From contig JAUXTU010000056.1 of assembly GCA_030679145.1 (NCBI GenBank), forward strand, positions 1-54,190: DNA of 54,190 nt, in the 5' to 3' direction. Below are positions 42,810-45,386 of the stretch, in pieces (positions within the stretch are counted from its first letter, which is position 1; the number at the start of each line of letters is the position of its first letter). Source of the DNA: Bacteroidota bacterium. GTDB taxonomy: Bacteria > Bacteroidota > Ignavibacteria > UBA10030 > UBA8401. The translations under genes and the position numbers were made by a program. Below the pieces are notes generated by a model. That model worked only from the letters and a program-made list of their open reading frames with translations, did not search any database and was not told the DNA's origin.

Positions 42810-44258
42810 ATGTTTGAACAAATAAAGCGCCTTGGAACGGATACTGCCATCTATGGTATCAGCACAATTGTTGCTCGTCTTCTCAATTTTATTCTCCTTC
42901 CGTTGTATGCAAATATTCTTTCTCCATCTGAATTTGGAATTCAGGCAAATATCTATGCCTATATCGCATTTTTTATCCTGTTCTATGGTTATGGAATGGA
43001 GTCGGCTTATTTTCGGTTTGCCTCTTCCAAAGAACTGGGAAGCGAAAAAGATAATTTCAGCACTCCATATATTTCCATTCTGATCGTTTCTGCAATTCTT
43101 TCAATTGTGTTATTTCTTTTTGCCGCTCCGTTGACTTCATTGTTCATGATCGATGTGTCAATGTATCAATTGATCTATTATGCGTCCGGAATTTTGTTTT
43201 TTGATGCTATAGTGCTTGTGCCATTTGCTTCACTGCGGCTTCAACGAAAGGCGAAATATTTTGCATCGATAAAAGTCATCAATATTGGATTTACTATCGT
43301 TCTCAATATCATTTTAGTCTATAAATTTCGTTGGGGCATCGAAGGAATATTTATAAGTAACCTTGCTGCATCATTGTTGTCATTTCTTATGCTCTTGCCG
43401 ACAACAATTCGTCAATTTGAATTCTCATTTCATAAATCTCTTTTTAAGGAATTGCTAAAATTTGGATTACCGATACTTCCTGTCGGCATCTCGGGAATTC
43501 TGCTGCAACTTGTTGATAGACCAATATTGCTATATCTCATGAACGAAGCATCTGTCGGAATTTATCAGGCAAATTTTCGACTTGGAATATTCATGGCACT
43601 TGTTACCGGAATGTTTGAATTCGCGTGGAGACCATTTTTTCTTTCTCACGCCAAAGATCCGAACGCAAAAGTACTATTCTCGCGGGTAATGACATATTAT
43701 TTGGCAGTCTGCGCTGTTGTATTTTTGTTGATATCCTTATTTGTGGAGGATGTCATAAAATTCAAATTTCAAGGTCATTATATCTTGCGTCCGGAATATT
43801 GGGATGGTTTAGCCATTGTTCCGTTGGTTTTGATCAGTTATATCTTCAGTGGTATTGGGACAAATCTAAACGCCGGAATTCAAATTGAAAAGAAAACCAA
43901 ATATCTTTTTCCAACATCATTTTCCGGATCATTAACAAAAATTATTCTCACTTTTATTCTTGTGCCGAAATATGGAATTATGGGAGCGGCGTATGCAACG
44001 ATATTTGGTTATATGATGGTGGAAATCACACTCTACTTAGTTGTGCAAAAATTTTATTACATCGAATATGAATTTGCGCGTATAGGAAAACTGGTACTGA
44101 CGGTGGCTATTGCATTTATTGCTGCAAAGGTATTCTTTGATAGTGTGCTTATAAAGTTTGTAATTTTGTTTACTTGGTTTTTCAGTCTGTTTTTGATCGG
44201 TTTTTTTACATCAGGAGAGTTATTGAGATTGAAAAACTTCTTTGGAAAAAAATCTTGA
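42810..44258 (+). CDS. Oligosaccharide flippase-like membrane protein
   Basis: The protein has 482 residues and about 14 membrane helices. The N-terminal IKRLGTDTAIYGISTIVARLL, broken as IKRLGTDTAIYGIST and IVARLLNFILLPLYA, together with LSPSEFGIQANIYAY is typical of polysaccharide-biosynthesis proteins of the MOP flippase family (RfbX/SpoVB side). It belongs to another subgroup than the flippase at 26485, and no sugar genes are next to it. It could flip another lipid-linked glycan, for example an O-antigen-like unit. Its stop codon lies within the -35 box of the B12-riboswitch promoter. Confidence 0.85.
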   Translation: MFEQIKRLGTDTAIYGISTIVARLLNFILLPLYANILSPSEFGIQANIYAYIAFFILFYGYGMESAYFRFASSKELGSEKDNFSTPYISILIVSAILSIVLFLFAAPLTSLFMIDVSMYQLIYYASGILFFDAIVLVPFASLRLQRKAKYFASIKVINIGFTIVLNIILVYKFRWGIEGIFISNLAASLLSFLMLLPTTIRQFEFSFHKSLFKELLKFGLPILPVGISGILLQLVDRPILLYLMNEASVGIYQANFRLGIFMALVTGMFEFAWRPFFLSHAKDPNAKVLFSRVMTYYLAVCAVVFLLISLFVEDVIKFKFQGHYILRPEYWDGLAIVPLVLISYIFSGIGTNLNAGIQIEKKTKYLFPTSFSGSLTKIILTFILVPKYGIMGAAYATIFGYMMVEITLYLVVQKFYYIEYEFARIGKLVLTVAIAFIAAKVFFDSVLIKFVILFTWFFSLFLIGFFTSGELLRLKNFFGKKS

Positions 44259-44283
44259 CATCAGCAGTCAGTTGTGTTATCTT
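44255..44283 (+). promoter_or_regulatory. Strong sigma-70 promoter for the first cobalamin riboswitch
   Basis: TTGACA (44255-44260), a 17-base spacer and TATCTT (44278-44283) form a near-consensus promoter. Transcription would start near 44290, just before the riboswitch. The -35 box contains the TGA stop of the flippase gene. Confidence 0.7.
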
Positions 44284-44294
44284 AAGGCAAGAAA

Positions 44295-44478
44295 TTTGTT
44301 CTTTTCAATGAATATGTTGGTGTCCCGATATAAATATCGGGGTGAAAATGGGAATCTCGTGATTCAATAATCTGAAAAATCGAGAGCTGACCCGCAACTG
44401 TGATTCTTTCAACCGAAAGAAGAGCCAGGAGACCTGCCAATGTATAGTTCGATACACCTTCGCGGAATGAGGTGGCAG
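44295..44478 (+). ncRNA. Cobalamin (vitamin B12) riboswitch 1
   Basis: The leader has the conserved cobalamin-riboswitch elements in order: a hairpin with TCCCGATA/TATCGGGG arms, GAAAATGGGAA, the GCTGACCCGCAACTGTGA core, a short variable stem (CTTTC-AACC-GAAAG), and the B12 box AGCCAGGAGACCTGCC (44423-44438). A final hairpin follows with CACCT (44455-44459), a 10-base loop and AGGTG (44470-44474). An intrinsic terminator follows at 44504-44530. Binding of adenosylcobalamin should switch off the DUF6580-like gene at 44564. The aptamer fills most of the gap between the flippase and that gene. Confidence 0.95.
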
Positions 44479-44503
44479 AAAAATTTGATCTTGAAATCTT
44501 TCG

Positions 44504-44530
44504 TGCCTCATTGTTTATGAGGCATTTTTA
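44504..44530 (+). terminator. Riboswitch-controlled terminator 1
   Basis: Stem TGCCTCAT (44504-44511) with ATGAGGCA (44517-44524), a five-base loop and a run of T. The 5' arm can instead pair with AATGAGG...GCA at 44466-44477 of the aptamer's last hairpin, which would form an antiterminator when no ligand is bound. Confidence 0.85.
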
Positions 44531-44563: not shown

Positions 44564-45082
44564 ATGAATACAAGAACTTCATTTATATTAGCGGTCGTTT
44601 TGATCGCTTTAGCAGCATTATCACGATTGATACCGCACCCTATGAATTTTGCACCGATCACAGCAATTGCATTGTTTGGCGGTGTGTATTTTAACGGAAA
44701 ATTTTCGCCCATACTTCCGTTGGCAGCACTTCTTATCAGTGATTTATTCCTCGGTTTTTACGAAGGAATTATATGGGTCTATGGAAGTTTTTTACTTATA
44801 GTTGCGGTCGGTTTACTTATCCGCAAATATAAATCCATTTCTGTCGTATTTGGCGCAACAATGATTGGTTCATTGCTTTTCTTTGTGATTACGAATTTTG
44901 GAGTATGGCAATCCGGCATGTTTTACACAAAAGATTTTACAGGATTGGTGGAATGTTACACAGCAGCGATTCCATTTTATCGCAACTCTGTGATGGGTGA
45001 TCTGTTTTATGTTACCGTGATGTTTAGTGTGTATGAATTGGTATTGAAATATTTGCCAAAAGTTCAATCAACCAATGCGTAA
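44564..45082 (+). CDS. Small membrane protein, DUF6580-like, under B12-riboswitch control
   Basis: The 172-residue protein has about five membrane helices. It begins MNTRTSFILAVVLIALAALSR and has HPMNFAPITAIALFGGVYF, ISDLFLGFYEG and NFGVWQSGMFY. This looks like the DUF6580 group, which resembles small S-component-like membrane proteins of ECF transporters in size and layout. A clean AAAGGAG precedes the ATG. Because its transcript starts with a cobalamin riboswitch and terminator, it is probably repressed by B12. I infer a role in uptake of cobalamin, a precursor or cobalt; the function is not established. No ECF ATPase or T component is nearby. Confidence 0.8.
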   Translation: MNTRTSFILAVVLIALAALSRLIPHPMNFAPITAIALFGGVYFNGKFSPILPLAALLISDLFLGFYEGIIWVYGSFLLIVAVGLLIRKYKSISVVFGATMIGSLLFFVITNFGVWQSGMFYTKDFTGLVECYTAAIPFYRNSVMGDLFYVTVMFSVYELVLKYLPKVQSTNA

Positions 45083-45092
45083 TATTTAGATT

Positions 45093-45316
45093 TTTGTTCT
45101 TTTCAATAGCAATGTTGGTGTCCCGATAACACTATCGGGATGAAAATGGGAATCTCGTGATTCACTAATCTGAACAATCGAGAGCTGACCCGCAACTGTG
45201 ATTTTGTATTTACTGAACCGTTCGTTCCTAGCGAAGGGTTCAGTGTAATATAAATAAGCCAGGAGACCTGCCAACGTTTGATTCAATACTCCTTCGAGGA
45301 CAGAGGATGGATTGAG
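45093..45316 (+). ncRNA. Cobalamin (vitamin B12) riboswitch 2
   Basis: This is a near-copy of riboswitch 1, shifted by 798 bases. It shares the opening TTTGTTCTTTTCAAT (45093-45107), the TCCCGATA hairpin, GAAAATGGGAATCTCGTGATTC, the GACCCGCAACTGTGA core, and the B12 box AGCCAGGAGACCTGCC (45257-45272). The variable stem before the B12 box is much longer than in copy 1 (arms around ACTGAACC and GGTTCAGT). The last hairpin has TCCT/AGGA arms round a 10-base loop similar to copy 1. A strong terminator follows, then the BtuB-like gene. I saw no clear separate promoter; the transcript may read through from the first gene. Confidence 0.95.
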
Positions 45317-45343
45317 AAATTATTCTTACGATTATTTTTTCTT

Positions 45344-45386
45344 AGCCCAGCTTTCTATTACTGAAGGTTGGGCTTTTTTATTTTTT
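45344..45386 (+). terminator. Riboswitch-controlled terminator 2
   Basis: A 12-bp stem (45344-45355 with 45363-45374; two G-T wobbles) with a seven-base loop is followed by a T-rich tract. It lies between riboswitch 2 and the btuB-like gene and is the likely expression platform. No obvious antiterminator partner was found upstream. Confidence 0.85.

Follow-up and report, generated by a model that had tools for sequence, protein, structure and literature searches.

How vitamin B12 crosses the inner membrane in bacteria without a classical B12 pump is the question raised by a small gene on a 54,190-nt contig of a Bacteroidota bacterium (JAUXTU010000056.1), the whole of which was analysed and is referred to here as the window. 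The initial annotation had read this gene as a candidate corrinoid or cobalt uptake component of ECF S-component-like size and layout, placed between a cobalamin riboswitch and a riboswitch-controlled BtuB-like gene and with no BtuCD in its neighbourhood. Here we present evidence that its product, a DUF6580 protein, is probably an inner-membrane importer of B12 or other complete corrinoids, which would have the S-component fold and, like BtuM, need no ECF ATPase module. In many bacteria without the classical pump, DUF6580 would appear to be the inner-membrane B12 importer that has been missing.

Two cobalamin riboswitches flank the DUF6580 gene

The 172-aa protein had a sole Pfam match, PF20221 (DUF6580), which covers residues 3–164 and scores 180.7 bits where the cut-off is 27; NCBI names proteins of this kind putative transport protein. 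Both riboswitches of the initial annotation were recovered, one ahead of the DUF6580 gene and one leading the BtuB-like gene downstream, scoring 74 and 79 bits with RF00174, whose gathering score is 31.5 (Table 1), and these two aptamers were the sole RF00174 matches in the 3.83-Mb source assembly, which is rated 100% complete. A repeat search aligned the two leaders over 116 nt at 90% identity, which makes it probable that one arose by copying of the other. A terminator-like hairpin lies between each aptamer and the following start codon (two found, 1.1 expected in shuffled sequence). Around the first hairpin, the segment 44495–44540 folded at −13.2 kcal/mol (z −3.9), with the longer segment 44456–44540 reaching only z −1.3, and around the second, 45338–45385 folded at −19.4 kcal/mol (z −5.6). 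The promoter-like site ahead of aptamer 1 is weak evidence, because the consensus scan found five such sites where 4.5 were expected.

The downstream receptor proved BtuB-like, as first annotated: its top NCBIfam model was the vitamin B12 receptor TIGR01779, at 188 bits and under the cut-off of 599.7, and its top PDB match was BtuB (3rgm, 4e-21). In family f1, to which the window belongs, each of the six genomes sampled had a riboswitch on both flanks of DUF6580.

Table 1 Positions of features in the window (first seven lines) and in related loci and genomes (locus or genome and contig handles precede the positions)
Feature	Position	Strand	Basis
Promoter-like site TTGACA-17-TATCTT, ahead of aptamer 1	44255-44283	+	Consensus scan, 10/12 matches
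Cobalamin riboswitch aptamer 1, DUF6580 leader	44301-44455	+	RF00174 74 bits, model 1-189/189
Terminator-like hairpin, expression platform of riboswitch 1	44503-44525	+	Hairpin scan
DUF6580 gene, 172 aa; predicted solitary S-component-like corrinoid importer	44564-45082	+	ORF; Pfam PF20221 180.7 bits; six predicted helices
Cobalamin riboswitch aptamer 2, leader of btuB-like gene	45099-45289	+	RF00174 79 bits, full model length
Terminator-like hairpin, riboswitch 2	45344-45374	+	Hairpin scan
BtuB-like TonB-dependent outer-membrane receptor, 726 aa	45415-47595	+	PF00593, PF07715
BtuF-like genes adjoining DUF6580	L043:5006-5998, L048:4496-5446, L152:5541-6509, L120:3995-4993		
DUF4430 proteins beside DUF6580, CPR-type loci	L142:4463-4984, L147:4146-4568, L176:363-2180		
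CbiQ-like frames with in-frame TGA	G096:C72:3525-4100, G062:C12:40727-41299, G069:C6:541608-542159, G131:C20:2455-2985		

DUF6580 is predicted to share its fold with BtuM and ECF S components

An AlphaFold2 model of the window protein was built from 73 sequences, namely its own and those of 72 of 80 related loci (alignment A3, without L110, L120, L121, L125, L167, L175, L179 and L187), and reached a pLDDT of 95.4 and a pTM of 0.89 with six helices rather than the five first counted. In a Foldseek search of the PDB, structures of BtuM bound to cyanocobalamin and hydroxycobalamin took the first two places (E values of 0.029, for 8c7p, and 0.040, both at probability 1.00). RibU, another S component and FolT came next, and no match reached an E value of 0.001 or better. 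VIA-align also placed BtuM first, with a Z score of 14.0, an rmsd of 2.9 Å over 158 residues and 16% identity, a score to be read with the program's warning that helical bundles may reach about 13–14 without kinship. The next chain scored 12.2, and the first 19 rows, down to Z 8.2, were all BtuM, ECF S components or CbiM, with the best other chain at 5.9. A second model, of a relative from the CPR (26 sequences, pLDDT 90.8), again had BtuM on top (Z 15.3, 2.6 Å over 159 residues), ahead of S components at 14.3 and of the best unrelated chain, a methane monooxygenase subunit, at 8.9. The ECF S-component-like layout is thus borne out by two predicted models, and BtuM is nearest in both.

Profiles of 44 and 73 DUF6580 members, searched against the PDB at E ≤ 10, each returned a sole match, 6fnp_A, which covers the first half (E 0.024 and 0.025, 17.5–17.7 bits), and found no chain of BtuM, RibU, BioY, FolT, ThiT or PanT. 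The entry 6FNP is described as the B12 transporter ECF-CbrT (PMC5997447). A sequence kinship between DUF6580 and CbrT would stand below normal significance; we count this match, which is not significant alone, for its agreement with fold and genomic context. A remote kinship with BtuM is possible despite the null sequence search.

Conservation was counted over 147 of 155 sequences, after the removal of duplicates. R21, D60, F106, N111, Y121, G127 and F138 were invariant, and the counts for H25, Y73, W115, C131 and R140 were 143, 145, 145, 119 and 96, respectively. Loop 3 (residues 64–68) had no cysteine column among the 147 sequences, the richest cysteine columns being 131 and 75 (11/147).

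DUF6580 genes keep company with B12-linked elements

Within the window's class, a cobalamin riboswitch lay at most 4.2 kb from DUF6580, always on the same strand, in 51 of 76 genomes against about 0.13 expected from random placement, so the association is not due to chance. Where the gene and a riboswitch shared a contig, they were this close and on one strand in 51 of 53 cases. A survey of DUF6580 for riboswitch and btuB neighbours, suggested in the initial annotation, therefore gave a positive result across most of the families sampled in the class, and the contrary outcome named there, homologues that never lie near B12 elements, did not occur; yet 25 of the 76 genomes had no riboswitch nearby, and 16 of them belong to five families (f3, f17, f18, f20 and f24) in which no sampled member had one.

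Each cluster of neighbours took its name from the Pfam, NCBIfam or PDB matches of one to four members, with the rest assigned by BLAST clustering. In these 76 genomes, the neighbours included BtuB-type receptors (52 genomes), a BtuG-like propeller (35), DUF71-family proteins (9) and MetH (9), with identity checked on one member each. The propeller's best PDB match was a surface-layer protein (8.6e-9), followed by the YncE family including 8blw (2.6e-5) and 8bmx (0.0023), which are reported as BtuB1G1 and BtuG2 with B12 (PMC10404256). The DUF71 neighbour matched PF01902, and genes of this family are described as adjoining B12 transport genes and linked to B12 salvage (PMC3541065). The MetH neighbour scored above its curated cut-off, and MetH was the adjoining gene in nine of nine genomes of family f16. 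BtuF-like binding proteins (PF01497), which would be unusual partners for a solitary S-component-like transporter, directly adjoin DUF6580 in four loci (L043, L048, L120 and L152); the one in L043 had an iron-binding protein as its best PDB match and a vitamin B12-binding protein as its second. In family f17 (L089–L096), a succinyl-CoA ligase beta cluster adjoins DUF6580 in 8/8 loci, none of which has a riboswitch nearby, and several of these DUF6580 copies rank among the lowest scores in the profile search.

Beyond the class, a collection scan queried with 18 of the first 44 aligned sequences yielded the best 80 of 586 relatives, from CPR groups, Planctomycetota, Omnitrophota, Blastocatellia and others. 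Among these best 80 loci, 26 were classed as CPR (23 by group name, plus L126, L166 and L170), and at least one B12-linked neighbour was found in 25 of these 26 and in 39 of the 54 non-CPR loci. The CPR neighbours, again among the best 80 of 586, were NrdJ (14 loci), DUF4430 proteins (14), PduO (7), BtuR (3), toroid/DUF4430 proteins (7) and a BtuF-like protein (1). Of the same 26 loci, 15 had NrdJ, PduO or BtuR and 10 more had DUF4430, toroid or BtuF-like genes only, a weaker B12 link; the members of NrdJ and of the adenosyltransferase PduO that we tested scored above their curated cut-offs. Rfam scans covered 32 of the best 80 loci and found a same-strand cobalamin-class riboswitch in 8 of 16 CPR-type loci (six AdoCbl-II, one AdoCbl, one RF00174) and in 6 of 16 others. 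The riboswitch of L143 ends 64 nt before the chosen DUF6580 start codon, and that of L161 lies downstream. Across the 44 genomes behind the wider loci (best 80 of 586), RF00174 exceeded its cut-off anywhere in 19, and FecCD was strong in 4, with any match in 8.

Some CPR-type loci carry DUF4430 proteins beside DUF6580 (Table 1). The one directly upstream of DUF6580 in L142 had Transcobalamin-1 as its best PDB match (E 0.00029), and the one in L176 joins a toroid-like domain to DUF4430, a layout that resembles animal B12 carriers. A transcobalamin-like reading of the L176 protein was dropped, as its PDB matches were of the squalene-cyclase type and none was a transcobalamin.

DUF6580 and BtuC-type permeases are found mostly in different genomes

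Profile searches of the whole genome of the window found no FecCD (PF01032)/BtuC-type permease, no CbiQ/EcfT and no CbiC match, alongside three B12-binding-domain matches. Across 149 genomes of the class, CbiC was found in none and B12-binding domains in 148, so members of the class seem to need B12 but not to make the corrin ring; the same CbiC search detected the gene in 7 of 14 control genomes.

Of the 149 genomes, 72 had DUF6580 only, 64 strong FecCD only, 4 both and 9 neither. FecCD was called strong at 240 bits or more (68 genomes) and was present at E ≤ 0.001 in 94; weak rows, such as a 72-bit fragment in G054, were left uncounted. Two DUF6580 rows below the threshold, G066 and one of the pair in G105, were likewise omitted, so the DUF6580-positive genomes number 76 rather than 77. 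CbiQ, taken as a control, occurred in 21 of 76 genomes with DUF6580 versus 22 of 73 without. The raw Fisher p for the exclusion is 5e-27 with kinship ignored. A quick rpoB tree covered 130 of the 149 genomes (2 without a match, 5 partial and 12 more excluded) and required a minimum of 15 changes in DUF6580 and 13 in FecCD. Over 11 independent pairs that differ in DUF6580 across supported branches, FecCD was on average opposite in 5.2, the same in 0.0 and unchanged in 5.8 (median p 0.06), and with FecCD as the first trait the values were 5.6, 0.1 and 5.3 (median p 0.03). With relatedness taken into account, the exclusion keeps a consistent direction but is only borderline in strength.

The FecCD proteins were themselves examined. 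BtuC models were the best NCBIfam matches in nine of nine tested, all under their curated cut-offs. A riboswitch match lay within 15 kb in only 8 of the 68 strong-FecCD genomes, and FecCD adjoins obg- or mnmE-type genes in several of 20 fetched loci, so the B12 role of these permeases is likewise one that we infer. The four genomes with both systems include that of a sister species in the window's genus (G043, L337), where a TonB receptor-BtuF-BtuC-ATPase cluster exists apart from the DUF6580 locus. Other B12 routes may exist, as nine genomes have neither system. In a sample of the phylum, DUF6580 exceeded its cut-off in 153 of 395 genomes, and the window protein had no match in the plasmid collection.

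As a separate observation, four genomes of the window's order contain CbiQ-like frames that each have one in-frame TGA and still score 83–121 bits (Table 1). Selenocysteine, recoding or repeated disruption are alternative accounts of these codons.

Energy source, substrate and role

Whether DUF6580 acts alone bears on the first alternative, in which it would be the S component of an ATP-driven transporter, with diverged EcfT and ATPases encoded elsewhere or with another ABC ATPase. The shared fold would allow this, CbiQ is present in 21 of the 76 DUF6580 genomes of the class, and CbrT by itself gives no rescue of E. coli (PMC5997447), a host reported in the BtuM work to have no ECF module (PMC6072759). 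Such a transporter is nevertheless unlikely, given that no CbiQ match was found in the window's genome or in 40 of the 44 genomes behind the wider loci (CbiQ in 4), that the helix-1 AxxxA motif, described as docking S components on EcfT (PMC11109136, section 10), is present in 6 of 147 DUF6580 sequences only, and that CbiQ shows no trend with DUF6580 on the rpoB tree.

A riboswitch alone cannot separate B12 from its precursors, and the salvage-linked DUF71 family (PMC3541065) is represented beside DUF6580 in 9 of the 76 genomes, both of which would suit import of a fragment or precursor of a corrinoid, be it cobinamide, alpha-ribazole or a lower-ligand base. Import of complete B12 accounts better for the distribution of DUF6580, inverse to that of BtuC-type permeases, for the BtuB- and BtuG-like carriers nearby, for MetH adjoining or NrdJ near the gene and for the B12-bound state of the closest structures, and we regard the precursor reading as quite unlikely.

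The cobalt half of the original suggestion is disfavoured. Cobalt transporters are often controlled by cobalamin riboswitches, and CbiM, a cobalt protein, is similar in fold (Z 8.8), but the corrin synthesis marker CbiC matched none of the 149 class genomes, so that B12 synthesis would hardly call for free cobalt, and the adjoining receptor resembles BtuB, a corrinoid importer. Cobalt transport is therefore very improbable and was dropped as the main reading, whereas the corrinoid half is supported by the riboswitches, the BtuB-like neighbour and the predicted BtuM-like fold.

A B12 sensor or membrane corrinoid-processing protein without transport is equally far-fetched: a common fold proves no function, the S-component fold also serves sensor kinases and MreD (PMC11109136), and BtuM itself is reported to strip cyanide from B12 (PMC6072759), but the 172-aa protein has DUF6580 as its sole Pfam match and is distributed inversely to an importer in B12-using genomes without CbiC.

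A proposed route for B12 and its significance

Taking these observations together, the S-component-like corrinoid uptake of the initial annotation is supported, with transport itself as the step that we infer, and import of complete corrinoids without an ECF module is the reading carried forward here. When B12 is short, both riboswitches would permit transcription of the DUF6580 and BtuB-like genes, and when B12 is bound to the riboswitches, the terminators would halt both. BtuB, joined in many relatives by BtuG-like surface proteins, would carry the corrinoid over the outer membrane, and in some lineages a BtuF-like protein may ferry it onward. DUF6580, presumably acting without a partner, would then bind the complete corrinoid in its S-component pocket and move it over the inner membrane without ATP, and the direction of import would be set by capture inside, through adenosyltransferase and B12 enzymes. 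Toppling of the protein and trapping of the vitamin are suggested for DUF6580 because we carry them over from BtuM, whose authors proposed toppling and metabolic trapping (PMC6072759).

A broader reading, to which we give somewhat less than an even chance, is that DUF6580 constitutes a major and so far overlooked class of B12 importer that needs no ECF module, spread over 153 of 395 phylum genomes and the CPR, repeatedly exchanged with BtuCD, served by varied carriers (BtuB with BtuG-like proteins, BtuF-like proteins and, in the CPR, transcobalamin-like proteins) and with H25, or no protein ligand at all, in place of the BtuM cysteine. In a literature search with most subscription journals and all preprints outside its scope, no paper named DUF6580, the papers mentioning PF20221 were unrelated by title, and among the B12-transporter papers listed, none described the family in its title or the start of its abstract.

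If the importer reading holds, DUF6580 could supply inner-membrane B12 import for a large share of Bacteroidota and several CPR groups, and predictions of B12 dependency from genomes could shift where the capacity for uptake is judged from BtuCDF. The family would also be a second one in which to ask how a protein of S-component fold transports so large a vitamin with no ATPase, and it raises the question of whether a periplasmic binding protein can feed an importer of this fold.

Comparison with known transporters

BtuCDF has the same predicted job as DUF6580, moving B12 across the inner membrane, and occurs in genomes of the same class, but it consists of a FecCD-type permease, an ATPase and a binding protein, whereas DUF6580 is another kind of protein. 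RibU, BioY, FolT, ThiT and PanT have a fold in common with DUF6580, with Z scores of 9.7–12.2 against the window model and up to 14.3 against the CPR relative, and score below BtuM by 1.8 and 1.0 Z units, respectively. CbrT is the only PDB sequence match of the DUF6580 profiles and has B12 as its substrate. Its reported gene context, nrdJ and pduO (PMC5997447), also recurs beside some CPR DUF6580 genes. CbrT needs an ECF module, however, whereas no CbiQ match was found in the window's genome and 40 of the 44 others, and the docking motif is rare among DUF6580 sequences.

The closest likeness is to BtuM of Thiobacillus denitrificans (PDB 8c7p, 8ovv; PMC6072759), the top structural match of two DUF6580 models. 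Both proteins are small, apparently solitary and btuB-linked. The conserved pocket residues reported for BtuM, H28, D67, Y85 and R153 (PMC6072759), have counterparts of the same type and in the same order in H25, D60, Y73 and R140 of DUF6580, a pairing that we treat as a lead because it is based on order and similar spacing rather than on a residue-level structural alignment. The two differ in that the cobalt ligand of BtuM is Cys80 in loop 3 (PMC6072759), whereas DUF6580 has no conserved loop-3 cysteine, in that two DUF6580 profiles searched against the PDB detected no sequence similarity to BtuM, and in their range, BtuM being reported mostly from Proteobacteria (PMC6072759) and DUF6580 found in Bacteroidota, the CPR and other groups. 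DUF6580 is not assigned to the BtuM family, as it shows neither the loop-3 cysteine nor similarity in sequence to BtuM. The best reading of this comparison is that DUF6580 is a separate family that works like BtuM without its ligand cysteine.
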